Shown here in pieces: positions 19,453 through 44,975 of a stretch of DNA of 64,000 nucleotides. The DNA lies in assembly GCA_030407315.1 (NCBI GenBank), contig JALQPE010002749.1, positions 1-64,000 of the forward strand. The letters are read 5' to 3'. This DNA is from Asparagopsis taxiformis (Eukaryota > Rhodophyta > Florideophyceae > Bonnemaisoniales > Bonnemaisoniaceae). The position numbers and the translations under genes are program-made. Each line of letters opens with the position of its first letter. Positions within the stretch are counted from its first letter, which is position 1. Under the pieces are notes generated by a model, which saw only the letters and a list, made by a program, of their open reading frames with translations, ran no database searches and had not been told where the DNA came from.

Positions 19453-19579
19453 CTTCCCTAGCCGATATCTACATCGGAAGGGCGTGTCAGAAGGGAATCG
19501 TCCAGGTAAGAAATAATTGTTCGGCAATAGTATTGCCGCCTGCGATACAAGTGAGAATCCGAAGAACGTTTGGTGCTCC

Positions 19580-20703: not shown

Positions 20704-20810
20704 AAAACAAGAAAAAAGTCTCACGGACGCCATCGTCGCCCGGTACGACCCCGCAGCCGGACAACACGGATCAGGAAGTCCCCAATACGAGTATATCTAA
20801 TTCACATGGG

Positions 20811-23513: not shown

Positions 23514-26500
23514 ATGGACAATTCCTTCTCTGAACCAAACTCTTCCGTTCCTAATCCCACATCCTCCACCCCACCGTCTTCCAATGCTCCTGTTTCTAGC
23601 GACACAAACCAACCCACACCTCAAACGACGCCTCAACTGACCACCGACTCCCCCGCCTCATCCTCCACACCAGCACCAGTCTGCGCACTGCCCGTCTCGT
23701 TAACACTCCCGACGTCCTCACCGTCACCACATTCTTCCCCAACACACTCTACTGCTCAACCCCCACACTCTGCTCCACCGGTGCACCTCGTCCAAAGATC
23801 CCATTACGTCCCACCTATCCAGCGACCCATACTCGACCTGTCACCGTCCTCCACCACCCCCGAGAGTGCTGTGAAGCGCGCCCTTCTGTCCGACGATCCA
23901 TCGACAAACTCTATCGCACTCGTCGGCATGGGCGGCGCAGGCAAGACCACCATCCTGTGCGCTCTTGGCAATGACGGCGAGGTCATGGGCAAATACCATG
24001 ACGGTGTGTGGTTCTTTGAACTTGGTCACGACGTTACGCTCTCCTCCTTTGTCCAGCAACTACAAGCATTTGTCAAATCCACACTCCCAGAATTTTCAAA
24101 AGTTTTCACTGAACTGGCCGCTTCCGAGCACACGCACCGCACAATGGTCACCCAACTCATGAAGCACCTCGTGACCAAACATGTCCTGTTGCTCTTTGAT
24201 GATGTCTGGGATACCAATGCGAGTGTGTACAAGTTAGTGTGTGTGATGTGCAATGTGGTGCAATGCAATGACAATGGTTTGTTGAAAATGCTGACATCGA
24301 CACGGAGCAGTGATATGGCCGATGATCTTGCAGACGTCACAGTACCACTCAATCCCGAGGAATTGGACGCGGAAAAGGCGCTTGCTATATTCTGCCGCAA
24401 TGCCAAAATCGATACCTCCGATGTCCCGTCGCTCTCTGCTGAGAACCAGCACTCGCTGCACTGCATTATCGAAACGTGTGCTGGATTGGCGCTTGCCCTG
24501 AGTGTTGCTGGCTCTGGAGTGAGGCAGGCGATGGACCGGAGGCTGGGTCGGTGTGACGAGAGTGCCATCAGTGTGTACTGGGGGCGATTGAAGACGAAGC
24601 CTCGACAACTCGGCGGTGCCGAACGAGGAGGACACCCTGGCCTGACCAGTGCAGTGGAGACAAGTGTGCAGTTTCTGGAGGAGAGGTGGGAGTCGTTAAA
24701 GAGCACAGAAGAACTGGCAGATGAGCTGAGTGCTAGAGACATGTTTCGATCGCTGTGCATTGTGCAGAAGCAGATGATTGTGCCGGTGAGTGTGCTTGAG
24801 CGAATGTGGGGTGTGGGAGATGTGCAGGCTGGAGTGACGATGTTGTCACGAAACAGTCTAGTATCCGAAGTTTGTGAGGAGGGCCAAGGGATTGTGGGAG
24901 TGGGGGTGCACGATTTGGTGCTGGATATGAGTGTGAAGATGAGTGAGGGAGAAGGTGGAGTGGAGAAGTGGCATGGGAGGCTAGTGGATGCATACGTGGA
25001 GTCGGCAAATGGAAGCAATGGAGAGAGGGATATGAAAGAAAACGAATGGTGGGAGCTGAAGAAAGATGACAAGTACATGAGGGAGAACGCGGTGCGACAC
25101 CTGCTCGGAGCTGGGCGGGTGAGTGCAGCACTGAAGCTGTTGACGGATTATCGATGGGTCGAGAAGATGAATAAGGACGAAGAGCGAGCGCCGTTCCAGA
25201 AGGTCATGAGCGAGCTGGAACTGGTACGAAGGCATTTAGGAGAGAAGACGGAAACTAGAAGAAGAATAGTCCATGATTTGGGCGTTGTTGCAAGAGCAAT
25301 GGAGCTTTGTATGGTACCGTATTGCATGAAGAACCGAGAAGAATGTACGTTTCAACTATTTGGACGATTGCGCGATGTTGAGAGCGAGAGTGGGTTGGTA
25401 GAGCGAATAGTATGTAGTATTGAGAGATATGCGAAGCGGCCTTGGGCTCGTTGTGGGCCTGGGGTGTTGACGAATGGGAGGAGCTCGTTGCGACGTGTAC
25501 TGGAGCTGGAGGATGAGGGACGATGCATGTGTGTGAGTGGGGGAGGGGAAGAAGTGATAGTGGGAAGGGGGAAGGTATGGGTGTTGGATGGTCGAAATGG
25601 GAGGGTGAAGAGGACGCTGGCTAGAGAAGAAGATGGTGCTATCGTCGGTGTGTTTTTCGACCGCACTTCGGGGTTGATATATTCATGCAGTGGAAGAGGA
25701 CAAGTGACAATCTGGAAAGAGGAGAAGAAGTTGCGATCAATGCAAGCCGAAGTAGGAGACGAAGAAGATTTGATCGGTTGTATGCAAGTGTTACCGTCGT
25801 CGAAGAAAGTGATTGTAGGAACTACTGACGGACGACTACTGGTTTTTGATACAACGAGCGGGGGAGTAGTTCGAACTGTCGCTGCGCATTCTGCTGGAGT
25901 GATATCGCTGGCAGTCGGAGGAAGCGAAACTGTGATGGTGTCTGGATCGTGGGATGGGACGATTCGTGCATGGGATACGACAAGCTTCGACGACAGTGGC
26001 GCTGTATTCAAGGGGCTCACGAGATGGGTGACCAGTGTGGCATTGAGTGCTGATGGGAGACTACTGGCCTCAGGGTCGTCGTCGGATTACAAAAGCGTTC
26101 AGCTCTGGGACGTGCCGAGTGGTGAGCCACTATGGACATCACCTCACGAATATCACAATGTTGTGGTTTGTGTCCTGTTCAGTAGCGATGAACGCTTGTT
26201 GTATTCTGTGGGCCTCAAGGGAACAAACGTATGGCAGGTGGGGAACGGTGGTCGTGACGTGTCACTGGCGCACACTCTCCCTATTTCGTCACCTTTATTT
26301 TTCAATTCGTTCGATCTGGGAGACGGCCCAGAACTATTCATATTGAGAGGCGATCGAGTAGAGGTTTGGGATGCGCGACAAGTCGACTGCAGCGACGATT
26401 CGTCCGGTGCATTTCTTCAGCAGGTCAGGAGATTTGGAGTTTCCGAGAATGGGACAACAATGGTGACGTTGAATCGCAGTTCGAAACGGATGGAGATACG

Positions 26501-27908
26501 CGACGTGTGTGACGTGTGTGATCACATCGATCGCGTCATTTCCAGTTTCGAAATACCCGTTTATGATAGTTGGCATCCCCCAGACTCACTGGCCATATCA
26601 AACAACCAGCGATTCGTCGCCTATTCTATTGATGGTAGTTGTGTTGTTCACATCGTTGACGCGCGGAATGGAAATGTTTTGCACTCGCTCTTTGATCTTG
26701 ATAAATGGGCGTTGTCGTTGACACGTCATGAACAGGATGACGCATCAATTCTGACGAGTTGCAGTCATTTGAATAACACGGCAGGAGTTCGACCTTTCCG
26801 AGAAGCTGGAATACTGTCGTTCAGTTCAGACAGTACGGTTATTTCAGCTTTCGCAGCCGCAAACCCAAACCCAAATGACGACAATGCGACGACTGTCGTA
26901 ACAAAGTCTGTGTCTTGGAATATATCGTCAGGAGAACCCATGGACGAAACGCATCTGGACGCCGATAGTACCGCAACGAGTAGCACACCATCCCCTCGCT
27001 TGGTCTGCAATGCGGAGTTTGACGGATGGTTCTTCCGATTTCCACGAAATGTCAAGTACGAACACGGCCAATCGTCTTTCACTATAGCCACCATGGAGGA
27101 TTATGTGTATGGAGCCCATTATATCTCTGATGCTTCCCGATTACACATTTCAATACATGACAGGGGTATGTGTTATGTGGATCTAATCACTGACAACACC
27201 AAACTCCCGCCACGCAACCCACCTCCTCTTTCACTCCTCAAACCTCATCCACCCCCACCACAGCACACAATCACAGATTCCGAACCAGATCAAGTATACG
27301 ACGTCTTCATAAGCCACGCCGGCCCCGACAAGTTCACCATCGCATTGCTGTTGTACAACCTACTCGTCGCACTTGATTTCAAGGTGTTTCTAGACCGGGC
27401 AGAGCTGCGGCCCGGGGAGAATGCACCCGAGAAGATGATCAAGGCGATGCGAACAGCGAAGATTGCAGTTGTGATACTGTCGCCAGAGTATGCTGCGCGG
27501 AAATGGACGCTGAAGGAGTTGATGTGCTTTATGGAGCGATTCCGTGCTGGCGGCGATAGAGAGATAATCATTATTCCGGTGTTCTACCGATTGACACTGG
27601 ACGACTGTCGAGACGAGAATTCGCTGTTTGATGCAGTGAACGATAAGGGAAAGAATGTGTTTCTGGCTGAAGGGTTTTTGAAGTGGATGTCGAAGCAGAA
27701 GGAGCTGACGATCGAGAAGGTACTGCAGGAACTACAGTCGCTGAGGGGAGTGACTGGTATCGAGAATGAGGCGAAAGTGACGAATGGAGAAAGTGAAGAG
27801 GAGAAAGCGGCGCAAATGCAATTAGCCGAAAAGATCCGAGACGCTGTTGTGGAGGCGAAGAATCGTCAGAATAGTGGGCGGGCTGCAGGTCCTAGTAGTG
27901 CACGGTAG
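23514..27908 (+). CDS. NLR-like receptor 1: NB-ARC / WD40 / C-terminal TIR
   Basis: The 1,464-residue protein is encoded without introns, with start context ACCATGG. Residues 1-~115 are Pro/Ser/Thr-rich and probably disordered. NB-ARC follows: P-loop GMGGAGKTT at 138-146, Walker B HVLLLFDDVWD near 222-232, sensor-like TSTR near 262, a GLPLA-type CAGLALALSVAG near 322-333, and a winged-helix region ending in VHDLVLD. A helical linker (AVRHLLGAGRVSAALKLLTDYRW) is like that of apoptosome-type ATPases with WD40 repeats. A beta-propeller of WD40-type repeats covers about 655-1230, most regular around SGSWDGTIRAWD and LLASGSSSDYKSVQLWD. The TIR domain starts at VYDVFISH (1261) and keeps the catalytic Glu of RKWTLKEL (1335). 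The likely role is a cytosolic sensor, with recognition by the propeller, ATP-driven assembly, and NAD hydrolysis or signalling by TIR. TIR at the C-terminus is the reverse of the plant order. Confidence 0.92.
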   Translation: MDNSFSEPNSSVPNPTSSTPPSSNAPVSSDTNQPTPQTTPQLTTDSPASSSTPAPVCALPVSLTLPTSSPSPHSSPTHSTAQPPHSAPPVHLVQRSHYVPPIQRPILDLSPSSTTPESAVKRALLSDDPSTNSIALVGMGGAGKTTILCALGNDGEVMGKYHDGVWFFELGHDVTLSSFVQQLQAFVKSTLPEFSKVFTELAASEHTHRTMVTQLMKHLVTKHVLLLFDDVWDTNASVYKLVCVMCNVVQCNDNGLLKMLTSTRSSDMADDLADVTVPLNPEELDAEKALAIFCRNAKIDTSDVPSLSAENQHSLHCIIETCAGLALALSVAGSGVRQAMDRRLGRCDESAISVYWGRLKTKPRQLGGAERGGHPGLTSAVETSVQFLEERWESLKSTEELADELSARDMFRSLCIVQKQMIVPVSVLERMWGVGDVQAGVTMLSRNSLVSEVCEEGQGIVGVGVHDLVLDMSVKMSEGEGGVEKWHGRLVDAYVESANGSNGERDMKENEWWELKKDDKYMRENAVRHLLGAGRVSAALKLLTDYRWVEKMNKDEERAPFQKVMSELELVRRHLGEKTETRRRIVHDLGVVARAMELCMVPYCMKNREECTFQLFGRLRDVESESGLVERIVCSIERYAKRPWARCGPGVLTNGRSSLRRVLELEDEGRCMCVSGGGEEVIVGRGKVWVLDGRNGRVKRTLAREEDGAIVGVFFDRTSGLIYSCSGRGQVTIWKEEKKLRSMQAEVGDEEDLIGCMQVLPSSKKVIVGTTDGRLLVFDTTSGGVVRTVAAHSAGVISLAVGGSETVMVSGSWDGTIRAWDTTSFDDSGAVFKGLTRWVTSVALSADGRLLASGSSSDYKSVQLWDVPSGEPLWTSPHEYHNVVVCVLFSSDERLLYSVGLKGTNVWQVGNGGRDVSLAHTLPISSPLFFNSFDLGDGPELFILRGDRVEVWDARQVDCSDDSSGAFLQQVRRFGVSENGTTMVTLNRSSKRMEIRDVCDVCDHIDRVISSFEIPVYDSWHPPDSLAISNNQRFVAYSIDGSCVVHIVDARNGNVLHSLFDLDKWALSLTRHEQDDASILTSCSHLNNTAGVRPFREAGILSFSSDSTVISAFAAANPNPNDDNATTVVTKSVSWNISSGEPMDETHLDADSTATSSTPSPRLVCNAEFDGWFFRFPRNVKYEHGQSSFTIATMEDYVYGAHYISDASRLHISIHDRGMCYVDLITDNTKLPPRNPPPLSLLKPHPPPPQHTITDSEPDQVYDVFISHAGPDKFTIALLLYNLLVALDFKVFLDRAELRPGENAPEKMIKAMRTAKIAVVILSPEYAARKWTLKELMCFMERFRAGGDREIIIIPVFYRLTLDDCRDENSLFDAVNDKGKNVFLAEGFLKWMSKQKELTIEKVLQELQSLRGVTGIENEAKVTNGESEEEKAAQMQLAEKIRDAVVEAKNRQNSGRAAGPSSAR

Positions 27909-30900
27909 AATGATGATAAAAAGATGATGAGATTGAAACTGGGTGACTACAGATGTAGATAGGAGTCGTGGTGTTAGAGTTCAATGGGCTGGAATTGAAA
28001 CGGATGAGCTGTGATGATGGCGGTGGGCGACACAGATAGTATATTTCGAAATGGAGTGAGATGTGCACGACGGGATGATAAGCGGATTTCGACTTGCAAG
28101 AATAATGTGCAACCTTTTCATTGTGGACCCAAGGAGGCTGGTAAGCGCATTTGGTGAATTCGCATGGAGGCTGACAAAGTGGAGCGACTCTATACAGCGC
28201 ATCTCGCAATGTTTCGCTATTCACACCCACTCGTTCACATTTCATACACCCATCGCAACGCGCAGTCTACACTACACATCTTCGCAAACGGCAGCTGCAA
28301 GTGTCGAGCCAGCCCGGTCAAACCGATCTGCGCTCGACGCGATGCTCATCCCTGCACGACGTGCAATGATATATTCGATGTGTGAAGCAATCAAAAGTCA
28401 GACATGAAGTGGCTCACATGAGGTGGAGAACACTCGGTCAGCGCGACGACCAAGGCTGCGAGTTGTACATGAGCGACAGTGAGTTGAAGTGGCTGCGGAG
28501 TCGTGAGAAAATAAGAAAATTGAGTATCAGAAATTGAGAGGGATAAATCGCTAATGCTCGTACAACCACCAAGTCACACCGCACATGTGGTATGGTACAA
28601 TGCTTTCTACACTCATCGACTACGGAATGGCAGGAGAGTATCGAATCGTTCAGCATCACACACGACGCTTCACTCGACCATACGTGCTTTCCGATGATGT
28701 GACCCGTGGCGGTGTTGGGCGCAATCGATATGTGCGCCTCAACGTTGTGGCGATGGGCGGGGACTCGGCAAGTGCTGGTGTGTGACAGTTGGGCGTGTTG
28801 ATAGTAGAATTGTGATGCCGGTGCACTTGCGGCCGTTGTGCGCATCCATTTGCCCGTCGCGTGGCGTCCACAGCAACATGTGGTATGGGTGATAAATAGG
28901 TAAAGCGTTTGGTGCATTTGTTGCGACTGCGTCACATGACCATAATTGTTATGTGTGTCGGTCGGTGTCATTGTGCCGATACATGCGTTTGTCAACTTCC
29001 GCAGGTGCATCGTGTATTCCACGCTGCGTATGTTCCATCAGCGTATCGTTAGACACATCCACTCGTGAACTCGTTCCACATGCGATTTGCTCGCTTGCTC
29101 TTTTGTTCTCTCAGCGCTGCACTGGTTGCAATACAGAACACCATGAACGAACGGAAATGGTCTGTCACTACGTACAGCGTCATCTATTCAAGCATCCATT
29201 GGAGCCACAGGGCGATACAACCAAACTGTCGTAGCGCTGTGCAGGATACACGCAATACGCAGCGATGAATTGCGTTTCAGAACAGATCAGGTATTTGGCC
29301 GCATCGCGATCGACTGTTGACTTTGCAATGAGCAACAAGGTATCGAGCGCGACAGGTTGGCATGAATCGGTTGTGGTTTGACTGCGATCGTGCGCATCGT
29401 TCAAAGTTGGCCAAGCGGTCTTTACCATGTCGATGTGTAGAGCTCGAAATGCGGATGGGAATTTATAATTTCAACAATTTCTACTGGAATGCGCTCAACT
29501 GTAGTTGTGCATTACAACGATGTAGACATTCCAACTCCAAAGCGGCAATGGTGAGTGGCACAAATATGCATTTATCGGCGATCGGTGTCTTGCAACATGG
29601 GGCGCACGATGTGGATTAGATGTGGTGAGAATGCGCGTCATCAATCCGTCTCCGGGCGCTAGCGGGTAGCATCAGTCCAATCCTCGGAGGAGAAAGTAGA
29701 GAAACCGCCGAAATGCCAGATGACGGGCGAGTTGTCCTGCGCAACTCATGCACACCACTGCGACGTATTATGTCTGAAATAGTAGCGAATTGTGGCAGAT
29801 GGATTGGTGCGGAAAGATGTTTCGATCCTATAGCGTGTAATGCGGTGCGATAGAGAAAGAATAATCAACTACGAACTCGTACATAAGAAGAGAGCTGGAG
29901 ATTGGAGAGGGGCGTCTGTCAATGGATTGCGAGGCGATTTAAAATTTGGGAAGTAGAATAGAGCAACTGAGCATTTAGCGAATGATGCCGGGCTATAAGA
30001 TATGTTTGGATCATTTAGGATTACGGGGAAATAGATGTGCGTATGAGTAGGTAGGCTTAGATTGAACAGCTGCGGGTTACGAGGGATATTCATGCTAGCG
30101 GAATAATAATGTTGCGAAACAGTTTGACATCGAAAGTTCAGGAAGAGCGAATAGAATATGTATTGTGGAAATGGGTGCGACTTGAAGTCCGGAAAGAATC
30201 GATAGTGGAATTGGAATATCGCAGAAGATGAAGGAAACACAGGTCGTGGACGACGCACGGAGAGATCAAAGTTCTAGCTTCTGCACAGCATCTCAAACAA
30301 TCTCCCCGCCTACTTTCCCACAGGCTGTGTCAGACACGCGAGCTGAACGCAAACCACAACTGCAAACGATGTGTCCACATGCGCGCGCAGTCACACAATG
30401 ATCAATCGCCCCTATTCCAGAGCTCCGGAAAAAGTACGAGACGATACCGTTAATGTGCAGAATCTGGAGCCGTTGCTACTAGGCTGCAGAATGGATATGC
30501 GACTCGGTCAGGTGACGGATACTGTCGGGACTGCATACAGACCGCGCGATGCAAACACAGACATCGAGCGCAGCATGTCACAATGTTTCGGCTGCGATGC
30601 AAGTGCATTTGGCATGATCGACAGCACCAGCGTCACGTTGGCAACAATCGAAACGCGACCACACAGATGAACGACTCGGTCTCGGTCTCGGCTGGTGACA
30701 GTGTTATCGGAACGTGGCAACGTATGGTGGACTGCGCCAAATCATGTTTTTCGTGCGCCCGAGTGTAACAATTCAAACCAGTATGATACACTACTCTCTG
30801 CAATTGGCGGCAGTGTACACGACCCGTGGTCCGGTACTTGTTTGCACATACAGTAAGGAAAGGATGTACTGAAAGACACATCCAATAGAAACATAGAATG

Positions 30901-31130
30901 TTCTCTCTCCGCAAACGGGTTGCAGACACGTGGACGACTGTTGACACGTCTTATTGGTCCATCAGCTTGAATTGTACCCAAGACGCTTCACTCGCAGTTT
31001 TGCGCATAATCTATGAACGTCCCCTCATAGACGTGTGCATATTCGATGACAACAAGGCGTTATTCCGTTCCCCGTCTCACGTCTTGCTGACTAATTGTTG
31101 GCATCGATCCATCTGCTTCCGCTCCGATAC
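27909..31130 (+). repeat. Duplicated 3' flank and spacer of NLR unit 1
   Basis: From the stop codon onward this spacer matches the one after NLR gene 2. Shared landmarks are AAAAAGATGATGAGATTGAAA after the stop, GTGGGCGACACAGATAGTAT, the ACATGTGGTATGGGTGATAA block near 28875, ATGAATTGCGTTTCAGAACA near 29262, and the 29869-30258 block. Compared with unit 2 it lacks about 650 bp around 29110 (present at 37430-38090), a clean deletion or absence. I find no convincing gene in it. Confidence 0.8.
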
Positions 31131-31594
31131 TTCGTTCTCCGCACAACACTTGCAGTAACACCGCATAGCGCACCACAACGCCGCACCTCATTCTCCTCAC
31201 AGCACACACCACTTCTCGACTCGCAACTCTTCCGCGCTCCAACCGTCCATACGCCCATCGTCCAACTCCTCCATCCTTTCCTCTGCACGTACCATTCGCC
31301 TCGCCGACTAACAATCTTCTCCCCACTAGCTACTTCAACTTTCCGAATCGATCCATCCTCTTTCGCTTTGTCACTTCGCTCTCCATACCATCCTCGCAGC
31401 AACACCGCGTAACGCCCTACCTCAGATCATTACAGCACACAGCGCACACCACTCCTCCACTTCTCGACTCGCAACTCTTCCCCTCCCGTACCGTCCATAC
31501 GTCCACCACCTCCATCCTTGCTTCTCCGTCCGTACCATTCAGCTCGCCGACTAACAATCTCCTCTGTCTTCCCTCCGCGCACACTTCTAGTACC
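31131..31594 (+). promoter_or_regulatory. Duplicated pyrimidine-rich leader of NLR gene 2
   Basis: The block ACTTCTCGACTCGCAACTCT occurs at 31211 and again at 31459, 248 bp apart. Each copy is followed by an ACCGTCCATACG block, then by GTACCATTC and CTCGCCGACTAACAATCT. The coding ATG at 31595 lies just after the second copy (CTAGTACCATGGG). The same doubled module precedes NLR gene 3. Confidence 0.55.
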
Positions 31595-34500
31595 ATGGGT
31601 CATTTCCTCTCTCAACCAGACCACCCTGTTCCCAACTCCGCCCGCTCCAACACTGTCACTCCACCGCCCCATCCTGTCCTTACATCTGACCACGCCCATC
31701 AAACGACCTCTGACTCTCCCGCCGTATCCGATTCCGCGCCCATCGAGTCCTCTCCACCGTCGCTATCCCCACCATCTTCCCCACTTCATCCAGTGTCCCA
31801 CCCATCTCACCCGCTTCCCCACTCCACTCCCGCATTGTCTCCCGCCCAACCATCACGTACCCCACAGCCCGCTGCCTTCTACGTCCCCCGAAACTCCCGC
31901 CAGATTGTCCTAGACTTCTCCAATGACTCCCGCACTCCAGAAAGCAAGGCCAAGCACGCACTCCTGTCCGATGACCCAAACAATAACGCCATAGCTCTCG
32001 TCGGCATGGGTGGTGCAGGCAAAACCACCATCCTGCGCGCCCTCGGCAGACGTGCAGATGTTTGGCAAAGGTTCCCAGACGGCGTGTGGTTCATTGAACT
32101 CGGTCACGACGCTAAAGTGCAGAGGCTGTTGAACCAGCTGAAGCAGATTGTCGCTAAAGCATTCCCAGATTTCCTCCCCAAATTCGCTGAACTCACCGCA
32201 AAGGACAACACTCATGTCAACATGATGGAAAAACTGGTTGACCTACTCGGTTCGAAGCGCTTTCTCCTCATCTTTGACGACATGTGGGATCTCGATTCCA
32301 TTGTCTACAAGTTGGTAGACATTACCTGCAAAGGTGTCCAGGAAATGGATGGAGGAAGTTGCAAGGTGCTGACGTCGACGAGGAATGAGGCGATAGGTCG
32401 TGTACCTACGCATGATGTGTCAATTGGAGTGAGTCCTGGAGATGTGCGTAGGGAGACATGCATCGCAATTCTGTGCGGGTATGCTGGGATCGACTGTACC
32501 AGGCTTGTGTCGTGGTCATCGGGCAATCGTGATGCACTGGAGAACATTGTTGACCTATGTGCAGGACTACCACTGGCACTGAGTGTAGCTGGATCTGGGA
32601 TGCAAGAAGTGAATGGTCGATGCACAGATGCGAGTGGGCCGAATGCAATTGTGCAATACTGGGAGAGTCTGAAGCGGAGGAGTGTAGAACTTCGTGATGC
32701 AGAGAGTGGTCGTAGACATGGGGGGCTGGATGCAGCTATCCAGACGAGCTTAGGGTCGCTGGAGAGAGGGTGGAAGGGGAAGAGCATGGGGGTGGGAGAG
32801 ATGTTTCGATCGTTTTGCGTAATGGAAAAGCAGATGTGTGTTCCATTGTGTGTGATCGAGAAGATGTGGGGCGTAGACGATGGGCTAGCAAGGGCGAGGA
32901 TGTTTTCGAGACACAGTCTAGTATCACTGGACGAAGAGGAGGGAGGGCTAGTGAGGGGGATCCAACTTCATGATCTTGTCCACGACGTGTGTGTCCAAAT
33001 GGCGGAGGGGAAGGAGGGGGTACGAGGGTGGCATAGCCGGCTCGTGGATCGGTACCGGGGATCACTACGGACAAGTCAAGGGGCAGCTGGAGATCATGCA
33101 GAGGACAATGAGAGTGCAGCTGACAAATGGTGGGAACTGAAGAAGGAGAAGTACATGAGCGAGAACATTGTGCGACACCTGCTCGGAGCTGGGCGGGTGA
33201 GTGCGGCATTGAAACTGTTGACGGAGTATCGATGGACCGAGAAGATGAATAAGGATGAAGAGCGACCGCCGTTCCAGAAGGTCATTGGCGAGCTGGAACT
33301 GGTTCGAAGGCATTTAGAAGAAGAAGAAGAAGAGAAGAGATCGGTTGGAAGAAGAGTAGTCCGTGATCTGGACGTTGTCATGAGGGCAATGGAGCGTTGC
33401 ATGGCGCCGTACTGCGTAGAGAATCGAAAAGAATGTACTTTTCAACTATTTGGGCGACTGCGCGATGTCAAGAGCGAGAGTCGGTTGGTAGAGCGAATAG
33501 TATATAGTATTGAGAGATATGCGGAGCGGCCTTGGGTTCGTTGTGGACCTGAGGTGCTGGAGAGTGGGAGGAGCCCATTGCGACGTGAACTGAATGTGGA
33601 GAGTCGTGGAACATGCATGTGTGTGAGTGGGGAAGGGAAGGAAGTGTTTGTGGGAGGGAGGAGGGGGGAGGTATGGGTGTTGGATAGTCAAGATGGGACG
33701 TTGAAGAGGACGCTGGCTGGGAAAGAAGATAGTGAGATCGTCGCTGTGTTTTTCGACCGCATTTCAGGGTTGATGTATTCATGCAATTTACGAGGAGAAG
33801 TGATAATCTGGAAAGACGAGAAGAAGTTGCAATCGATGCAAGCTGTAGAAGACGAAGAAGAGAAGATCTCTTGTATGCAAGTATTACTGTCGTCGAAGAA
33901 AGTGGTTCTAGGAACTTATAAAGGGCGACTACTGGTCCTTGATGCAACGAGCGAGAGAGTAGTTCGAACTGTCGACGTGCACGGGAAAGGAGTGAAATCG
34001 CTGGCAATCGGAGGAAGCGAAACTGTGATGGTTTCTGGATTGTGGGATGGGACGATTCGTGCATGGGATACGACAAGCTTCGACGACAGCGGCACTGTGT
34101 TCGAGTTGCACGAAGAATATGTGGTCAGCGTGGCGTTGAGCGCTGATGGGAGACTACTGGCCTCAGCGTCGAACAATGGAAACATTGGGCTTTGGGACGT
34201 GCAGAGTGGCGAGCAACTGTGGACATCACCTTCCAAAGACCTCAATCCTGGGCATTGTGTGCTCTTCAGTGCCGATGAACGCTTGTTGTATTCTGTGAAC
34301 TTCAGAGGAACAAGGGTATGGCGGGTGGGGAACGGTGGTCGTGACGTGTCACTGGCGCACACTCTCCCCATTTCAACTTCATTTTCCGATTCGTTCGGTC
34401 TGCGAGACGGCCCGGAACTATTCATAATGAGTGGTAGTCGAATACAAGTTTGGGATACGCGACAAGTCGTCTACAGCGACGATTCGTTCGGTCTGGGAGA

Positions 34501-36088
34501 CGGCCCGGAATTGTTCATGTTGGGTGGTCGTCAAATACAAGTCTGGAATTCGCGACCAGTCGTCTACAGCGACGATTCGGTCGGTGCATTTCTTCCGGGC
34601 GTGTCGAAATTTGGAGTTTCTGAGAATGGGACAACAATGGTGACGTGCAATTCCAAGTCGAAACGGATGGAGATACGCAACGTGTGTGACGTGTCGCAGC
34701 GCAACGATCGCGTCATTTCTAGTTTTGAAATACCCGCTTATGATCGTTCGTATCCGCCAGAATCACTGGCCATATCAAACAACCAGCGATTCGTCGCCTA
34801 TTCTATTGATGGTAGTTGTGTTGTTCACATCGTTGACGCGCGGAATGGAAAAGTTTTGCACTCGCTCACTGACCTTGAGCAAAGGGCGTTATCGTTGACA
34901 CGCGATGAACAGGATAACGCATCGAATTCCGGAGACTCAAGTAGTAGGGCACGAGTTGAAGAACTGAACAAGAATGTTGGGCCACTGTCGTTCAGTTCAG
35001 ACGGCAGTGTGATTTCAGCTTTCGCAGCCGCAAACCCAAACCCACTTGACGAAAATGATACAAATGTCGAGAAAAAGTCTGTGTCTTGGAACGTATCGTC
35101 AGGAGAACCCATGGGCGAAACACATCTGGACGCCGATAGTACTGCAACGGGTAGCACAGCAACCCCTCGCTTGGTCTGCAATCCGCAGTTTGATCGATCG
35201 CTCTTCCGTTTTCCACCAAATGTCAAGTACGAACACGGCCAATCGGCTTTCACTATAGCCACCATGGAGAATGTTGTGCATGGAGCCCATTACGTTGCCA
35301 ATTCATCTCGATTACTCTTTTCAACATGGCACAGGGGTATGTGTTATATCGATCTAATCACTGACAACACCAAACTCCCGCCACGCAATGCACCTGCTTT
35401 ACCCCTCCTTCCCCAACCTCACCCATATCCAACCCCATCACAGGACACAATCACAGATTCCGAAGCCGACGAAGTATACGACGTCTTCATAAGCCACGCC
35501 GGCCCCGACAAGTTCACCATCGCATTGCTGTTGTACAACCTACTCGTCGCTCTCGGTTTCAAGGTATTTCTGGACCGGGCAGAGCTGCGGCCCGGGGAGA
35601 ATGCACCCGAAAAGATGATCAAGGCGATGCGAACAGCGAAGATCGCAGTTGTGATACTGTCGCCAGAGTATGCTGCGCGGAAATGGACGCTGAAAGAGCT
35701 GATGTGCTTCTTGGAGCGATTCCGTGGCGGCGGGGAGAGAGAGATAATCATTATTCCGGTGTTCTACCGATTGACACTGGAACAGTGCCGAGACGAAAAA
35801 TCGCTGTTTGGGGTCAAGAACGACGAGGGAGAGAATGTGTTTGTGGCTGAAGGGTTTCTGGAGCGAATGGTGAGTGAGCGGGAATATGAATTACGTGATG
35901 TATTGCAAGTTCTACAGTCGCTGAGGGGAGTGACAGGTATCGAGAACGAGGCGAAAGTGACGAATGGAGAAAGTGAAGAGGAGAAGGCGGGGCAAATGCA
36001 ATTTGCCGAGAAGATCCGAGACGCTGTTGTGGAAGCGAAGAATCGTCAGGATAGTGGGCGGCCTGCAGGTCCTAGTAGTGCACGGTAG
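31595..36088 (+). CDS. NLR-like receptor 2: NB-ARC / WD40 / C-terminal TIR
   Basis: This 1,497-residue paralogue of receptor 1 is intact and intron-free. The Pro/Ser/Thr-rich N-terminus ends in a segment with FYVPRNSRQIVLDF just before NB-ARC. The P-loop GMGGAGKTT is at 137-145, Walker B FLLIFDDMWD near 221-231, TSTR near 261, CAGLPLALSVAG near 324-335 and the MHD-like LHDLVHDV near 462-469. The linker has IVRHLLGAGRVSAALKLLTE. The propeller runs from about 680 to 1265 and includes SGLWDGTIRAWD. It contains a 31-residue in-frame duplication relative to receptors 1 and 3. TIR begins at residue 1294 (VYDVFISH), with the catalytic Glu of WTLKEL at 1368. The TIR and tail are almost identical to receptor 1 at DNA level, whereas the propeller differs far more. 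This suggests homogenisation of the output domain and diversification of the sensor. Confidence 0.92.
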   Translation: MGHFLSQPDHPVPNSARSNTVTPPPHPVLTSDHAHQTTSDSPAVSDSAPIESSPPSLSPPSSPLHPVSHPSHPLPHSTPALSPAQPSRTPQPAAFYVPRNSRQIVLDFSNDSRTPESKAKHALLSDDPNNNAIALVGMGGAGKTTILRALGRRADVWQRFPDGVWFIELGHDAKVQRLLNQLKQIVAKAFPDFLPKFAELTAKDNTHVNMMEKLVDLLGSKRFLLIFDDMWDLDSIVYKLVDITCKGVQEMDGGSCKVLTSTRNEAIGRVPTHDVSIGVSPGDVRRETCIAILCGYAGIDCTRLVSWSSGNRDALENIVDLCAGLPLALSVAGSGMQEVNGRCTDASGPNAIVQYWESLKRRSVELRDAESGRRHGGLDAAIQTSLGSLERGWKGKSMGVGEMFRSFCVMEKQMCVPLCVIEKMWGVDDGLARARMFSRHSLVSLDEEEGGLVRGIQLHDLVHDVCVQMAEGKEGVRGWHSRLVDRYRGSLRTSQGAAGDHAEDNESAADKWWELKKEKYMSENIVRHLLGAGRVSAALKLLTEYRWTEKMNKDEERPPFQKVIGELELVRRHLEEEEEEKRSVGRRVVRDLDVVMRAMERCMAPYCVENRKECTFQLFGRLRDVKSESRLVERIVYSIERYAERPWVRCGPEVLESGRSPLRRELNVESRGTCMCVSGEGKEVFVGGRRGEVWVLDSQDGTLKRTLAGKEDSEIVAVFFDRISGLMYSCNLRGEVIIWKDEKKLQSMQAVEDEEEKISCMQVLLSSKKVVLGTYKGRLLVLDATSERVVRTVDVHGKGVKSLAIGGSETVMVSGLWDGTIRAWDTTSFDDSGTVFELHEEYVVSVALSADGRLLASASNNGNIGLWDVQSGEQLWTSPSKDLNPGHCVLFSADERLLYSVNFRGTRVWRVGNGGRDVSLAHTLPISTSFSDSFGLRDGPELFIMSGSRIQVWDTRQVVYSDDSFGLGDGPELFMLGGRQIQVWNSRPVVYSDDSVGAFLPGVSKFGVSENGTTMVTCNSKSKRMEIRNVCDVSQRNDRVISSFEIPAYDRSYPPESLAISNNQRFVAYSIDGSCVVHIVDARNGKVLHSLTDLEQRALSLTRDEQDNASNSGDSSSRARVEELNKNVGPLSFSSDGSVISAFAAANPNPLDENDTNVEKKSVSWNVSSGEPMGETHLDADSTATGSTATPRLVCNPQFDRSLFRFPPNVKYEHGQSAFTIATMENVVHGAHYVANSSRLLFSTWHRGMCYIDLITDNTKLPPRNAPALPLLPQPHPYPTPSQDTITDSEADEVYDVFISHAGPDKFTIALLLYNLLVALGFKVFLDRAELRPGENAPEKMIKAMRTAKIAVVILSPEYAARKWTLKELMCFLERFRGGGEREIIIIPVFYRLTLEQCRDEKSLFGVKNDEGENVFVAEGFLERMVSEREYELRDVLQVLQSLRGVTGIENEAKVTNGESEEEKAGQMQFAEKIRDAVVEAKNRQDSGRPAGPSSAR
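34394..34579 (+). repeat. 93-bp in-frame tandem duplication in the propeller of NLR gene 2
   Basis: A block starting TTCGGTCTG is found at 34394 and again at 34487. Each copy is 93 bp (31 codons) and encodes a strand pair ending in YSDDS: DGPELFIMSG...QVWDTRQVVYSDDS, then DGPELFMLGG...QVWNSRPVVYSDDS. Receptors 1 and 3 have only one such segment. The copies have already diverged at several codons. Confidence 0.9.
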
Positions 36089-39000: not shown

Positions 39001-40130
39001 GAGTAGGTATGCTTAGATTGAGCAGCTGCGGGTTACGAGGGATATTCATGCTAGCGGAATAATAATGTTGCGAAACAGTTTGACATCGAAAGTTCAGGAA
39101 GAGCGAATAGAATATGGATTGTGGAAATGGGTGCGACTTGAAGTCCAGAAAGAATCGATAGTGGAATTGGAATATCGCAGAAGATGAAGGCAACACAGGT
39201 CGTGGACGACGCACGGAGAGATCAAAGTTCTAGCTTCTGCACAGCATCTCATACAATTACCACGGCTACCCGCTCACAGGTTGTGTCGGACACGCGAGCT
39301 GAACGCCTACCACAATTGCAAACAATGTGTCAATACGCGCGCGCAGTCACACGATGAACAATCGCCCCCATTCCAGGGCTCCGGAAAAAGCACGAGACAA
39401 TATAGTTAACATGCGGGATCTGGAGCCGTTGCTACTAGGCAGTAGAAGGGAAGTTCGACTCGATCGGGTGATGGATGCTGTCGTGATTGCCTGCAGACGC
39501 AGATTTCGAGCGCAACATGTCGTGATTTTTCGGCGGCGATTGGAGCGGATTTGGCATGATCGATAACACCAGCGTCACATTTGCAACCATCGGAACGCGA
39601 CTTTGGAACGGGAAGACCTAATCTCGCTTGTTGGCAGTGTTGTCGGGAGGTGGAAACCAATTAGTGCTGCGTCGAATCAAGCCTTTCATCCACCCGAGTG
39701 CAACAGTTCAAATTAGATGAGTACACTACTGGATGAAATTTGCGCAAGTGTGTTATACGATACACTGGGTACCATACACCGTGAGGCAGTGTACACGAAC
39801 CATAGTCCCGGTGTACTTTCCGCATGATACATCGACTTCTTACTACCCGAATACATCCAATAGAAATATAGAATGTTCAATCTCCGCAAACAGGGTGCAG
39901 ACACGTGGACGACTCTCGACACGCGTATTGCCCTTCAGCACGAGTTGGAACCGAGATATGTTACGAAACTAGCAGCTCTGCCTTCAATTTTAATACGCCT
40001 CCTCCCTCGTGTACAGGTGTATATTCGATTACAGCGAGGCGCGACCCCGTTCCCCGTCTCGCAACTTGCCGAATAAACTGTTCCTATCGATCCATCTACC
40101 TGAACTCCGTTTCTTCGCGCAGCACACGAC
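36089..40130 (+). repeat. Duplicated 3' flank and spacer of NLR unit 2
   Basis: It aligns with 27909-31130 over most of its length: after the stop, around 36890-37430, and from about 38090 on. It adds the block 37430-38090, which instead matches 46440-47190 and 59640-60200 (CAACCCGTCCCCAAACCGTG and CAATCCCTAGCAATGTTTGC). Several short frames are open here but differ between copies without a coding pattern. No gene is called. Confidence 0.8.
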
Positions 40131-40604
40131 ACTCGCATCCACCCCGCGCAGCCCAACACCGCACCGCATCTCACCAGCACCACATCCCATACCACGCACC
40201 ACTCTTCCACTTCTGAACTCACAATTCTTCCGCGCTCGAACCGTCCATACGCCCACCGCCCATCACCTTCTCGATCGTTGCCGCCCCATCCGTACCATTC
40301 ACCTCGCCAACTGACATTCTTCTCCCCACTAGTAGCCTCACCTATTCGTATCAATCCATCCTCTTCAGTTCTGTTACTTTGCTCTCCATACCACCCTCGC
40401 ACCAACACCGCGTAACGCCCTACCTCAGATCATCACAGCACACAGCGCACACCACTCCTCCACTTCTCGACTCGCAACTCTTCCCCCCTCGTACCGTCCA
40501 TACACCCACCGCTCACCTCATCCATCCTCGCCTCTCCGTCCGTACCATTCAGCTCGCCGACTAACAATCTCCTCTGTCTTCCCTCCGCGCACACTTCTAG
40601 TATC
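40131..40604 (+). promoter_or_regulatory. Duplicated pyrimidine-rich leader of NLR gene 3
   Basis: The two-copy module of gene 2 is repeated here, with ACTTCTGAACTCACAATTCT at 40209 and ACTTCTCGACTCGCAACTCT at 40462 (253 bp apart). The final ~170 bp are nearly identical to those before gene 2. The start codon at 40605 has ATCATGGG, a slightly weaker context than in genes 1 and 2. Confidence 0.55.
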
Positions 40605-43600
40605 ATGGGTCATTCCTTCTCTCAACCAGACCATCCTGTCCCTGCATCTGACCACGCCCATCAAACGACTTCTACTTCTCCCGCCGTAGCTGGTTCTGCG
40701 CCCATCGAGTCCCATCCACTGACACAATCCCCACCATCTTCCTCACTTCATCCAGTGTCCCAGCCATCTCACCCGCTTCCCCACTCCACTCCCACATTGT
40801 CTCCCGCCCAACCATCACGTACCCCACAGCCCGCTGTCTTCTACGTCCCCCGAAACTCCCGCCAGATTGTTCTCGACTTCTCTGATGATTCACTCACTCC
40901 AGAAAGCAAGGCCAAGCACGCACTCCTGTCCGATGACCCAAACAATAACGCCATAGCTCTCGTCGGCATGGGTGGCGCAGGAAAAACCACCATCCTGCGC
41001 GCCCTCGGTAGACATGCAGATGTTTGGCAAAGGTTCCCGGACGGCGTGTGGTTCATTGAACTCGGTCACGACGCCAAAGTACAGAGGCTGTTTGACCAAC
41101 TGGAGCAGATCGTGACCGACGCATTCCCAGATTTCCTCCCCAAATTCGCTGAACTCACCGCAAAGGACAACACTCATGTCAACATGATGGAAAAACTGGT
41201 TGACCTACTCGGTTCGAAGCGCTTTCTCCTCATCTTTGACGACATGTGGGATCTCGATTCCATTGTCTACAAGTTGGTAGACATTACCTGCAAAGGTGTC
41301 CAGGAAATGGATGGAGGAAGTTGCACGGTGCTGATGTCGACTCGGAATGAGGCGATAGGTCGTGTACCGACGCATGATGTGTCAATTGCAGTGAGTCCTG
41401 GAGATGTGCGTAGGGAAACATGCATCGAGATTCTGTGTGGGTATTCTGGGATCGACTGTACCAGGCTTTCGTCGTGGTCATCACCCAACCGTGGTGCACT
41501 AGATAAGATAGTTGACCTCTGTGCAGGACTACCACTGGCACTGAGTGTTGCAGGGTCTGGGATGCAAGAAGTGATTGGTCGATGCGGAGATGTGAGTGGG
41601 CCGAATGGGATTGTGCAATACTGGGAGAGCGTGAAGCGGAGCAATGCGGAACTGCGTGATCCAGAAAGTGGGAGTAGGCATGTGGGGGTGGGTGCAGCTA
41701 TCCAGACGAGTCTGGAGTCGCTGGAGAGAGGGTGGAAGGGGAAGAGCATGACGATGGGGGAGATGTTTCGGTCGTTTTGCGTAGTGGAAAAGCGGACGTG
41801 TATTCCATTGTGTGTGATCGAGAAGATATGGGGCGTAGAAGATGCGCTCGCAAGGGTGAGGATGTTTTGGAGACACAGTCTGGTATCACTGGATGAAGAT
41901 GAGGGAGGGTTAGTGAGGGGGATCCGACTCCATGATCTTGTTCACGATGTGTGTGTAGAAATGGCAGGAGGGAAGGAGGGAGTACGAGGTTGGCATTGCC
42001 GGCTCGTGGATGGATACCGGGGATCACTACGGACAAGTCAAGGAGCTGCTGGAGATTGTGCAAAGAATGAAGGAGAGAGCACCGAGAGTGAAGATGAATG
42101 GTGGAAACTGAAGGAGACAGAGAAGTACATGAGCGACAACGTGGTACGACACCTGCTCGGAGCTGGGCGGGTGAGTGCGACGCTGAAGTTGTTGACGGAT
42201 TATCGATGGACCGAGAAGATGAATAAGGATAAAGAGCGAGCACCGTTCCAAAAGGTCATCGGCGAGCTGGAACTGGTACGAAGGTATTTAGAAGAAGATA
42301 AGACAGAAATTGGAAGAAGAATAGCCCGCGATTTGTACATTGTCACAAGGGTAATGGAGCTTTGTATGATACCGTACTGTATGAAGAACCGAGAAGAATG
42401 TACGTTTCAACTATTTGGACGATTGCGCGATGTTGTGAGCGAGAGTGGGGTAGTAGAGCGAATAGTGTGTAGTATTGAGAGATATGCGGAGCGGCCTTGG
42501 GCTCGTTGTGGGCCTGGGGTGTTGACGAGTGGGAAGAGCTTGTTGCGACGTGTACTGGAGGTGGAGGGATATGGAGAATGCATGTGTGTGAGTGGGGGAG
42601 GGGAAGAAGTGATTGTGGGAGGGCGGAGGGGGGAGGTGTGGGTGTTGGATGGTCGAGATGGGAGGGTGAAGAGGACGCTGACTGGAGACGAAGATAGTGC
42701 TATCGTGGGCGTGTTTTTCGACCGCATTTCGGGGTTGATGTATTCATGCAATCGGAGAGGACAAGTGACAATCTGGAAAGAGGAGCACAAGTTGCGATCG
42801 ATGCATGCAGAAGTAGAAGACGAAGAAGAGAAGATCTGGTGTATGCAAGTGTTACCGTCGTCGAAGAAAGTGGTTCTAGGGACCAGTAAAGGGCGACTAC
42901 TGGTGATGGATGCAACGAGCGGAAGAATAGTTCGAACTGTCGCCACGGATTCTGATGGAGTGACTTCGCTGGCAATCGGTGGAAGCGAAACTATGATGGT
43001 GTCTGCATCTTTATCGTGGTACAACACGATTCGTGCATGGGATACGAAAAGCTTCTACGACAGCGGCACTGTGTTGAAGGGGGACCTAGAATGGGGGCCC
43101 AGCGTGGCATTGAGCGCTGATGGGAGACTACTGGCCTCGGCGTCGGAGAATGAAGGCGTTCGTTTTTGGGACATGCAGAGTGGCGAGGAGCTAAGGACAT
43201 CACCTCCCAACTATTTCGAAGAAGAGGAAAACGTACTGTTCAGTGCCGATGGGCGTCTGCTGTATGCTGTGGGCACTTACGAAACGAGCGTATGGCGGGT
43301 GATGAACGGTGGTCGTGACGTGTCACTGGCGCACACTCTCCCCATTCCAACTTTTGATGTCAAATCGATCGGTCTGGGAGACGGCCCGGAACTGTTCTTG
43401 TTGAGTGGCGGTCGAGTACAAGTTTGGGATGCGCGACCATCGGGCAGCAGTGACAATCCGGACGACACATTTCTTCCGCACGGGTTGAGATTTCGAGTTT
43501 CTGAGAATGGGACAACAATGTTGACGTGGAATCACCAGCCCAGACAGATGGAGATACGCAACGTGTGTGACGTGTCGGAGCGCATCGATCGCGTCATTTC

Positions 43601-44975
43601 CAGTTTCAAATTCCACCGGCGTAATCACGCAGAGGTTGGTTTTCCATATTCTCTGGCCGTATCAAACAACCAGAAATTCGTCGCCTATTCTTTTGTTCGC
43701 AGTTGTGTTGTTTACATCGCTGACGCGCTGAACGGAAATGTTTTGCATTCACTGTCTCATCTTGAGCAATGGGCGTGTTCGTTGACACCCGATGAGCAGG
43801 ATGACGCATCGAATTCTTCGAGTAGCACGGCAGGAGTTAATCCATACCGAGATGTTGGAATACTGTCGTTCAGTTCAGGTGGTAATGTGATTTCAGCTTT
43901 CGCAGCCGCAAATCGGAACCAGAACTGGAACCGATATGACGGGAATCCACCGATTGTCGAGACAAAGTCTGTGTCTTGGAATGTATCGTCAGGAGAACTC
44001 ATGGACCAAACACATCTGGACGCCGATGGTACCGCAACGAGTAGCACAGCAACCCCTCGCTTGGTCTGCAATGCGCAGTTTGACGGAGATCTCTTCCGTT
44101 TTCCACGAAATGTGACGTACGAACACGGCCGAACATCTTTCACCATAGCCACCGTCGAGGATCATGTGTATGGAGCCCATTACGTCGCCGATACATTCCG
44201 ATTAATATTCTCATCAGTGTACAGGGGTATGTGCTATGTCGATCTAATCACTAACAACACCCATCTCCCGCCACGCAACGCACCCCCTCTTCCACTCCTC
44301 AAACCTCATTCACTTCCACCCCCACCACAGCACACAATCACAGATTCCGAACCAGATCAAGTATACGACGTCTTCATAAGCCACGCCGGCACCGACAAGT
44401 TCACCATCGCATTGCCGTTGTACAACCTACTCGTCGCTCTCGGTTTCAAGGTGTTTCTAGACCGGGCAGAGCTGCGGCCCGGGGAGAATGCACCCGAAAA
44501 GATGATCAAGGCGATGCGAACAGCGAAGATTGCAGTTGTGATACTGTCGCCGGAGTATGCTGCGCGGAAATGGACGCTGAAGGAGCTGATGTGCTTTTTG
44601 GAGCGGTTCCGTGCCGGTGGGGAGAGAGAGATAATCATTATTCCGGTGTTCTACCGATTGACCCTAGATGACTGCCGAAACGAAAATTCGCTGTTCGGTG
44701 CAGTGAACGACAAGGGAGAGAATGTGTTTGTGGTTGAAGGGTTTTTGAAGTGGATGTCGAAGCAGGAGGAGCTGACGAACAAGAAGGTACTGAAGGGACT
44801 ACAGTCGCTGAGGGGAGTGACTGGTATCGAGAACGAGGCGAAAGTGACGAACGGAAAGAGTGAAGAGGAGAAAGCGGGGCAAATGCAATTTGCTGAGAAG
44901 ATCCGGGACGCCGTGGTGGAGGCGAAGGATCGTCAGAATAGTGGACGGGCTGCTGGTCCTAGTAGTGCGCGGTAG
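40605..44975 (+). CDS. NLR-like receptor 3: NB-ARC / WD40 / C-terminal TIR
   Basis: The 1,456-residue paralogue is intact and intron-free. The NB-ARC half is close to receptor 2: P-loop GMGGAGKTT at 121-129, Walker B FLLIFDDMWD near 205-215, CAGLPLALSVAG near 308-319 and LHDLVHDV near 446. The sensor strand reads VLMSTRNEAIG, with Met for the Thr seen in the others. The propeller has diverged: the SG(S/L)WDGTIRAWD repeat of receptors 1 and 2 is replaced by SASLSWYNTIRAWD. TIR starts at residue 1253, with the catalytic Glu of WTLKEL at 1327. In TIR this copy has HAGTDKFTIALPLYN where the others have HAGPDKFTIALLLYN. The tail again ends AGPSSAR. It lies head-to-tail with genes 1 and 2 and probably arose from the same duplication as gene 2. 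Confidence 0.92.
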   Translation: MGHSFSQPDHPVPASDHAHQTTSTSPAVAGSAPIESHPLTQSPPSSSLHPVSQPSHPLPHSTPTLSPAQPSRTPQPAVFYVPRNSRQIVLDFSDDSLTPESKAKHALLSDDPNNNAIALVGMGGAGKTTILRALGRHADVWQRFPDGVWFIELGHDAKVQRLFDQLEQIVTDAFPDFLPKFAELTAKDNTHVNMMEKLVDLLGSKRFLLIFDDMWDLDSIVYKLVDITCKGVQEMDGGSCTVLMSTRNEAIGRVPTHDVSIAVSPGDVRRETCIEILCGYSGIDCTRLSSWSSPNRGALDKIVDLCAGLPLALSVAGSGMQEVIGRCGDVSGPNGIVQYWESVKRSNAELRDPESGSRHVGVGAAIQTSLESLERGWKGKSMTMGEMFRSFCVVEKRTCIPLCVIEKIWGVEDALARVRMFWRHSLVSLDEDEGGLVRGIRLHDLVHDVCVEMAGGKEGVRGWHCRLVDGYRGSLRTSQGAAGDCAKNEGESTESEDEWWKLKETEKYMSDNVVRHLLGAGRVSATLKLLTDYRWTEKMNKDKERAPFQKVIGELELVRRYLEEDKTEIGRRIARDLYIVTRVMELCMIPYCMKNREECTFQLFGRLRDVVSESGVVERIVCSIERYAERPWARCGPGVLTSGKSLLRRVLEVEGYGECMCVSGGGEEVIVGGRRGEVWVLDGRDGRVKRTLTGDEDSAIVGVFFDRISGLMYSCNRRGQVTIWKEEHKLRSMHAEVEDEEEKIWCMQVLPSSKKVVLGTSKGRLLVMDATSGRIVRTVATDSDGVTSLAIGGSETMMVSASLSWYNTIRAWDTKSFYDSGTVLKGDLEWGPSVALSADGRLLASASENEGVRFWDMQSGEELRTSPPNYFEEEENVLFSADGRLLYAVGTYETSVWRVMNGGRDVSLAHTLPIPTFDVKSIGLGDGPELFLLSGGRVQVWDARPSGSSDNPDDTFLPHGLRFRVSENGTTMLTWNHQPRQMEIRNVCDVSERIDRVISSFKFHRRNHAEVGFPYSLAVSNNQKFVAYSFVRSCVVYIADALNGNVLHSLSHLEQWACSLTPDEQDDASNSSSSTAGVNPYRDVGILSFSSGGNVISAFAAANRNQNWNRYDGNPPIVETKSVSWNVSSGELMDQTHLDADGTATSSTATPRLVCNAQFDGDLFRFPRNVTYEHGRTSFTIATVEDHVYGAHYVADTFRLIFSSVYRGMCYVDLITNNTHLPPRNAPPLPLLKPHSLPPPPQHTITDSEPDQVYDVFISHAGTDKFTIALPLYNLLVALGFKVFLDRAELRPGENAPEKMIKAMRTAKIAVVILSPEYAARKWTLKELMCFLERFRAGGEREIIIIPVFYRLTLDDCRNENSLFGAVNDKGENVFVVEGFLKWMSKQEELTNKKVLKGLQSLRGVTGIENEAKVTNGKSEEEKAGQMQFAEKIRDAVVEAKDRQNSGRAAGPSSAR

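Follow-up and report, generated by a model that had tools for sequence, protein, structure and literature searches.

In this study we show that the genome of the red alga Asparagopsis taxiformis holds a tandem cluster of genes for large proteins that combine an NB-ARC nucleotide-binding domain, a WD40 sensor and, at the C-terminus, a TIR domain. The cluster lies in a window of 64,000 nucleotides (the whole stretch that was analysed: positions 1 to 64,000 of the forward strand of contig JALQPE010002749.1, assembly GCA_030407315.1). The assembly includes a plastid contig with an rbcL of 488 codons, and its plastid SecA, at 96% identity to that of A. taxiformis and 71% to that of Ahnfeltia plicata, the next named species, agrees with this origin. 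The motifs of these proteins are intact, including the glutamate at the putative catalytic position of the TIR, and their relatives form a large and clustered gene family. We think it probable that the proteins are membrane-tethered, nucleotide-gated immune receptors of the STAND type, with a variable double-propeller sensor and a TIR that is competent to cleave NAD+ (NADase).

Three uninterrupted open reading frames (ORFs), all on the plus strand between 23514 and 44975, comprise 1464, 1497 and 1456 codons (copies 1, 2 and 3; Table 1). In each of them the Pfam matches follow the order NB-ARC, WD40/beta-propeller models, TIR, far beyond chance: E-values are 7.6e-23, 9.8e-21 and 2e-21 for NB-ARC and 1.4e-16, 3.9e-16 and 2.7e-17 for TIR (PF01582) in copies 1, 2 and 3. 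The TIR occupies residues 1262-1395, 1295-1402 and 1254-1392, respectively, and is thus C-terminal and not N-terminal. The original prediction, made from the letters alone, had given the order NB-ARC, helical linker, propeller and TIR for all copies, and ORFs and Pfam matches bear this out for copies 1-3. The prediction did not include the inverted copy 4 and the TIR relic of Table 1. Propeller models fill the sensor region; among the 25 models listed per protein, out of 37-46 Pfam families, there was no leucine-rich repeat (LRR) model and no CARD. The N-terminal 80-115 residues of the three copies are Pro/Ser-rich and of low complexity. In copy 3 an MHD-like motif (LHDLVHD) stands downstream of the NB-ARC match, at about residue 443, and a Pro-rich linker lies between the second strand-rich stretch and the TIR.

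Table 1. Features of the NB-ARC/WD40/TIR cluster, in window positions.
Feature	Position	Strand	Basis	Remarks
Copy 1, NB-ARC/linker/WD40/C-terminal TIR, 1464 aa	23514..27908	+	ORF, Pfam	start MDNSFS, without Gly2
Copy 1 NB-ARC	23868..24521	+	Pfam	subfamily differs from copies 2 and 3
Copy 1 TIR	27297..27698	+	Pfam	
Copy 2, architecture as copy 1, 1497 aa	31595..36088	+	ORF, Pfam	start MGHFLS
Copy 2 NB-ARC	31946..32605	+	Pfam	
Copy 2 TIR	35477..35800	+	Pfam	
Copy 3, architecture as copy 1, 1456 aa	40605..44975	+	ORF, Pfam	start MGHSFS
Copy 3 NB-ARC	40908..41567	+	Pfam	P-loop GMGGAGKTT, kinase-2 LLIFDDMWD, GLPLAL
Copy 3 first propeller, residues ~644-947	42534..43445	+	AlphaFold2 model	fits seven-bladed propellers
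Copy 3 second strand-rich stretch, residues ~960-1215	43482..44249	+	sequence, model	probable second propeller
Copy 3 TIR, then conserved tail	44364..44780	+	Pfam, model	tail contains TGIE
Codon of putative catalytic Glu1327, copy 3	44583..44585	+	alignment	motif WTLKEL
Copy 4, inverted	48437..52734	-	Pfam	split over two frames
Relic of TIR end and tail	54363..54680	+	67% identity, 106 residues	matches copy 3 residues 1351-1456

The same order recurs across the genome. The assembly of 141.5 Mb (3156 contigs) was searched for TIR and NB-ARC frames, which yielded at least 150 TIR frames (150 of 275 candidates were scored) and at least 114 NB-ARC frames (114 of 414 scored); both are minimum counts in which haplotype copies are included. 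For 65 of the 114 listed NB-ARC frames the nearest TIR on the same strand lies 2.55-4.80 kb downstream (median 2.785 kb). It lies upstream for four, and for 45 there is none in range on either side. In two of the four (on contigs C2479 and C1008) another TIR follows 2.7-2.8 kb downstream. A TIR less than 1.5 kb upstream occurs only for the frame on C2479, and we read it as the C-terminal TIR of a tandem neighbour. The family is clustered, as 98 of the 150 TIRs stand on contigs with at least two of them (35 of the 87 TIR contigs). Six paralogues were fetched from elsewhere in the genome (L021-L026), and all six carry the TIR at the C-terminal end, recognised by Pfam in L021, L022, L024, L025 and L026 and by the family model in L023.

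The sensor half is predicted to have an Apaf-1-like fold. When its model was searched with Foldseek, the first row from the PDB was full-length Apaf-1 (873 columns, E 1.4e-24). The first propeller fits a prokaryotic WD40 domain of solved structure (TMt 0.89); the VIA-align rows concern this propeller only. A second propeller is probable from the model. Animal Apaf-1 is built of NB-ARC, helical arm and propellers, and the algal proteins probably resemble it in this; they differ in that they start with a low-complexity stretch, often with MG, end in a TIR and have no CARD among the models listed. NB-ARC and one seven-blade-like propeller are clear as Apaf-1-type parts, and the helical arm is modelled at low confidence.

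At the protein level the propeller is the fastest-changing part of these receptors. In the three tandem pairs its ratio of nonsynonymous to synonymous change (dN/dS) is 0.87, 0.76 and 0.77 versus 0.42, 0.35 and 0.36 for linker, TIR and tail taken together, a difference that was reached in 1, 0 and 0 of 2000 codon shuffles. For NB-ARC the ratio is 0.10-0.29 in the six pairs compared. The TIR core (residues ~1276-1334) shows a dN of at most 0.01, the lowest among the listed 60-codon segments in each of the three pairs, and in the 60 codons that follow it dN is 0.28, 0.08 and 0.25. Copy 1 differs in its history. Its NB-ARC half shares 43-47% amino acid identity with copies 2 and 3 at a dS above 2, its linker-to-tail part shares 67-93% at a dS of 0.14-0.43, the switch in relatedness falls near residues 447-500, and in the NB-ARC tree copy 1 clusters with loci of contigs C2108, C2109 and C415. 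Copy 1 is a chimera, and the simple reading of these comparisons is that its NB-ARC was acquired by domain exchange between subfamilies.

Contig C2602 represents a second haplotype of the cluster, with 99.9% identity over 17.2 kb and 10.6 kb. The two alignments meet near window position 34590 but are about 4.4 kb apart in C2602, which places an insertion inside copy 2. The insert in this allele (L019, near positions 48511-52940 of C2602) contains an 845-codon ORF with a MULE transposase domain, so that a MULE-type DNA transposon interrupts copy 2 of the other haplotype and open and interrupted alleles coexist. Such damage raises the question of whether we are looking at a decaying gene family with little function, dominated by tandem expansion, broken frames and insertions. 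Besides the transposon in the other haplotype, copy 4 is split into two overlapping frames (50743-52734 with NB-ARC, 48440-50848 with WD40 and TIR), a TIR relic lies at 54363-54680, and many of the frames listed genome-wide are short. However, the three window copies are open over 1456-1497 codons, the dN/dS of NB-ARC is only 0.10-0.29 and the window copies hardly differ in their TIR core, and we regard decay as a very improbable account of the family.

The N-termini suggest a membrane anchor. A Met upstream of the P-loop is present in 10 of 11 distinct algal P-loop frames (L009 is without), and seven of these ten start with MG: MGHFLS, MGHSFS, MGKCFS (twice), MGHSTS, MGNCCA and MGCCFS. Position 6 is Ser in six of the seven (copies 2 and 3, L010, L011, L022 and L026), and the seventh (L024, MGNCCA) has two Cys. 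The three without an MG start are copy 1 (MDNSFS), a frame beginning MMITNP and L023, where the frame continues beyond the locus. The relatives P0004 and P0005, described below, also begin with MG. N-myristoylation follows the rule of a Met-Gly start with Ser, Thr or Cys at position 6, and palmitoylation can be added where a Cys is near. The MG starts fit N-myristoylation, with palmitoylation in those copies that have a nearby Cys; paralogues are not independent of each other, and the pattern is suggestive only.

The TIR was modelled with a mean pLDDT (predicted local distance difference test) of 81, and its predicted fold is plant-TIR-like: in Foldseek the PDB rows 1-31 are plant TIRs (among them 7xoz, which we take to be from a plant), followed by bacterial rows mixed with a few more plant ones. 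Of 18 algal TIR rows, 17 retain the Glu that aligns with the motif WCLEEL of Roq1, the exception being a 100-residue fragment, and so do all seven rows from the bacterial family Amoebophilaceae, to which we return below. NADase TIRs such as AbTIR match the algal TIR by sequence. With its catalytic Glu in place, the C-terminal TIR is putatively NADase-competent. One could instead imagine STAND receptors whose C-terminal TIR is no enzyme but a scaffold on which further TIR proteins gather, since C-terminal TIRs of animal receptors are mostly protein-binding, the alga has Thr or Pro where Roq1 has a Cys beside its catalytic Glu, and the second half of the TIR varies among the copies. We find this fairly unlikely in view of the conserved Glu motif, the almost unchanged TIR core and the sequence match to known NADase TIRs.

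How might such a receptor work? We propose that the N-terminus would be held at the membrane by N-myristoylation, and in some copies by palmitoylation as well, and that NB-ARC would be kept closed by the Apaf-1-like helical arm and the double WD40 propeller. Binding of a ligand on the fast-evolving propeller would lead to opening and to the assembly of protomers. The C-terminal TIRs, on their flexible Pro-rich linker, would then come together and cleave NAD+, which might trigger local defence or cell death.

Several observations weigh against this proposal. Copy 4 is broken, and copy 1 and L025 lack Gly2. The propeller model was built from only 8 rows and has a mean pLDDT of 69, most residues among the first 120 being below 50, and the whole-chain TM-scores with Apaf-1 are low (0.34 and 0.25, with a root-mean-square deviation of 18.4). 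In Apaf-1 the propellers sit at the rim of the wheel; hence contact between TIRs placed behind them is not obvious after assembly. As the dN/dS of the propeller stays below 1, constraint there may simply be relaxed. In the second half of the TIR (residues ~1334-1396) constraint is not strong, with a dN of 0.25-0.28 and a dN/dS of 0.62-0.67 in two of the three pairs, and the loss of the Roq1 Cys means that plant-type products cannot be assumed. Finally, neither the EDS1 family (EDS1_EP, PF18117) nor RPW8 had a match in the genome; the controls of both searches were genomes not known to carry the family in question, and those for PF18117 gave no match either.

To place the family among known receptors we used two trees, with 52 TIR rows and 44 NB-ARC rows, both unrooted, biased by word-based retrieval and composed without animal or fungal rows; TIR rows with fewer than 75 model positions, NB-ARC rows with fewer than 150 and identical sequences had been dropped. 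In the TIR tree, where 12 of the 52 rows fill less than half of the columns and four branches are long, plants group at 95/96, and algae, Amoebophilaceae and plants are set apart from other bacteria at 95/85. Algal and Amoebophilaceae rows join at 85/88, on a branch that is not starred, and a branch at 60/93 separates the algal rows from all the rest. In the NB-ARC tree algae (100/100), plants (98/93) and bacterial-type rows (88/78) form groups of their own. A separate eukaryotic lineage of NLR-like receptors had been suggested for these genes at the outset; this gains support with respect to plants, as neither TIR nor NB-ARC nests in the plant TIR-NLRs, and the trees leave animals and fungi aside. 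The best single-domain scores of NB-ARC, 65 bits for plants versus 54 bits for bacterial-type sequences, do not decide between the two. A clearly plant-like NB-ARC had been considered as well, but this rested on a two-domain score and was dropped. Plant TIR-NB-LRR proteins (ROQ1, RPP1, L6, RUN1) share with the algal ones the TIR fold, the catalytic Glu motif, the NB-ARC motifs and the occurrence in large clustered families. They differ in that the alga has its TIR at the C-terminus and WD40 in place of LRR as sensor, that neither NB-ARC nor TIR of the alga falls within the plant groups and that the algal kinase-2 ends in W, a residue typical at this place of non-TIR plant NLRs.

A likeness to bacterial STAND proteins was part of the original prediction too, and it holds for the modules of some of them but not for the position of the TIR. 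Five bacterial-type TIR-NB-ARC-WD40 proteins (P0209, P0230, P0234, P0242 and P0273) also combine these three modules, yet their TIR is N-terminal (Pfam TIR_2, residues 9-133) and of low similarity to that of the alga. Of 307 proteins compared (120 of them SecA hits), 27 outside the family have a TIR match, and none of these TIRs starts later than residue 137. PADLOC and NCBIfam entries resemble the algal proteins in TIR, NB-ARC or propeller; the best PADLOC match, PDC-S66 (E 1.4e-21), concerns the TIR, and all NCBIfam matches are below the curated cut-off. Listed viral, phage and plasmid TIRs have 24-37% identity to the algal TIR. For the algal helical linker 14 matches were obtained outside the family, all weak (at most 29.8 bits); the three with names are actinobacterial. 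Two homologue searches were run, one with a single protein and one with the family alignment, with about 8000 candidates scored in each. Among their listed hits only P0004 (47%) and P0005 (36%) have the same architecture; P0005 is nearly identical to paralogue L022 in both trees, and P0004 and P0005 may come from the genus Asparagopsis itself. No relative from the red alga Chondrus was among the listed hits of either search, which is weak evidence.

The closest relatives of the TIR that we found, by sequence similarity, are ten loci in one metagenome-assembled genome (MAG) of Amoebophilaceae, a family of mostly intracellular symbionts. When bacterial and archaeal genomes were scanned with two exact TIR strings as seeds (FISHAG[PT]D and IIPVFYRL), an Amoebophilaceae MAG TIR matched at 45% over TIR and tail (E 5e-30), and five others reached E 9e-10 or weaker. 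The MAG SS36425bin_2 (G001, 1.1 Mb) contains 11 TIR matches at 10 loci, one locus being split in two. With a model that included one of these rows (L027), no TIR was found at E 1e-10 in 20 other genomes of Amoebophilaceae, and 146 other genomes of the order gave one weak match (1e-15). A model of seven algal rows alone scores the MAG TIRs at 112-163 bits (7 rows), versus at most 64 bits for other bacterial, phage and plasmid rows and at most 62 for plant rows (whole-sequence maximum 65.5). The bacterial genes (L027, which is the same locus as L038, together with L039-L042, L048 and L049) share the type of TIR with the alga, and L027 the TGIE tail as well. In contrast to the algal proteins they carry the TIR near the N-terminus; L027 is a TIR-NACHT gene by Pfam, with NACHT behind the TIR, and L042, a 380-residue frame, has by Pfam the TIR alone. 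L027 lies between pheS-like and ndk-like genes, as read from their translations. A lipobox-like LQGC is present near the start of L038-L040, and LQSC in L041.

A possible hypothesis, which we put forward tentatively, is that the TIR module was passed between a host resembling the alga and a symbiont of the Amoebophilaceae, and that the symbiont may employ TIR-STAND proteins as mimics of host receptors or to disturb them. The gap in bit scores, the concentration of ten loci in one MAG of the family, the common TGIE tail and the joint branch in the TIR tree all point in this direction. However, that branch is not starred, and a topology that unites alga and plant TIRs without the MAG is not rejected (p-AU 0.396). 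The direction of transfer hangs on the weaker branch of the algal rows alone, the scan was seeded by exact strings and may have missed other bacterial relatives, and the sampling was without other red algae and other eukaryotes. Such an exchange would be compatible with any of the functions considered here.

The combination of NB-ARC, WD40 and TIR in one protein, which Pfam finds in Asparagopsis, is not new, and the idea that the arrangement had so far gone unrecognised has to be given up. According to the accessible portions of two publications, Chondrus crispus has 61 NB genes, 58 of them NB-WD40 and 23 of these 58 with a TIR (PMC7145615), and its proteins have been named TIR-NBARC-WD40 and, with reference to Gao et al. 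2018, their NB-ARCs described as the sister group of plant NB-ARCs (PMC9806590). Both species are red algae with the three modules in one protein and many paralogues. In these portions the position of the Chondrus TIR is unstated and the one name suggests an N-terminal TIR, and the likeness is one of description. The Asparagopsis family looks larger, on counts that are lower bounds and include haplotype copies. No description of a C-terminal TIR on NB-ARC-WD40 proteins was found in the open-licence literature. What we add is the C-terminal TIR, a likely membrane tether, the variable propellers, the chimeric copy 1 and the link to the Amoebophilaceae TIRs. A 2025 genome paper on A. taxiformis L6 reports an expansion of WD40 (186 genes) and 391 potential pathogen receptors, and it counts an SGT1 orthologue as well as WD40 genes as potential defence genes; in the main text, as far as accessible, NB-ARC and TIR do not occur (PMC12115072). 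We think that much of this WD40 expansion is the NB-ARC/WD40/TIR family.

Whether the presumed ligands are microbial is a further question. Fungal NLRs with variable WD40 sensors control allorecognition, as the available text of one source states (PMC10197012), and the algal family might likewise serve self/non-self recognition, comparable to the variable WD40 proteins HET-E/D of fungi, or developmental recognition, or general stress signalling, and not defence against microbes; a large, chimeric and allelic family would fit this as well. Yet in Pyropia yezoensis three NB-ARC+WD40 genes, listed without a TIR in the part of the paper at hand, are upregulated on oomycete infection (PMC6928737), and we consider a function outside antimicrobial defence unlikely.

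Apart from the cluster, the window contains a Copia-type retroelement (gag pre-integrase, integrase and RVT_2) at 60874-63999 that runs off the window end, and an ORF with an N6_N4_Mtase DNA methylase domain at 4307-5863 on the minus strand (E 4.5e-16). An ORF of 1130 codons at 9772-13164 (+) has no Pfam match at E 0.01. At 19933-20703 (+) there is a weak match of phage-integrase type (E 0.001, below the curated cut-off), possibly a tyrosine-recombinase element. On contig C2602 a further NB-ARC-bearing frame of 1409 codons (17358-21587, L016) belongs to the alternative haplotype and lies outside the part that aligns to the window at 98% or more.

Most of what is known of NLR-type immunity comes from land plants, animals, fungi and bacteria, and red algae form a deep branch of the plant supergroup. 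A large and variable red-algal repertoire of NLR-like proteins with another domain order therefore bears on how TIR, NB-ARC and sensor modules have been combined. It might even represent a third eukaryotic NLR geometry, a membrane-tethered STAND protein with the TIR behind the sensor, kept in some 100 or more variable copies, with a TIR exchanged with intracellular Amoebophilaceae that carry a TIR-STAND family and with a possible arms race between host and symbiont, although taken as a whole we hold this picture to be rather doubtful. If the Amoebophilaceae link is true, it would be a case, open to testing, in which host and symbiont have an immune module in common. As A. taxiformis is under development as a methane-reducing livestock feed, according to the accessible part of the genome paper (PMC12115072), its disease resistance also has practical weight.

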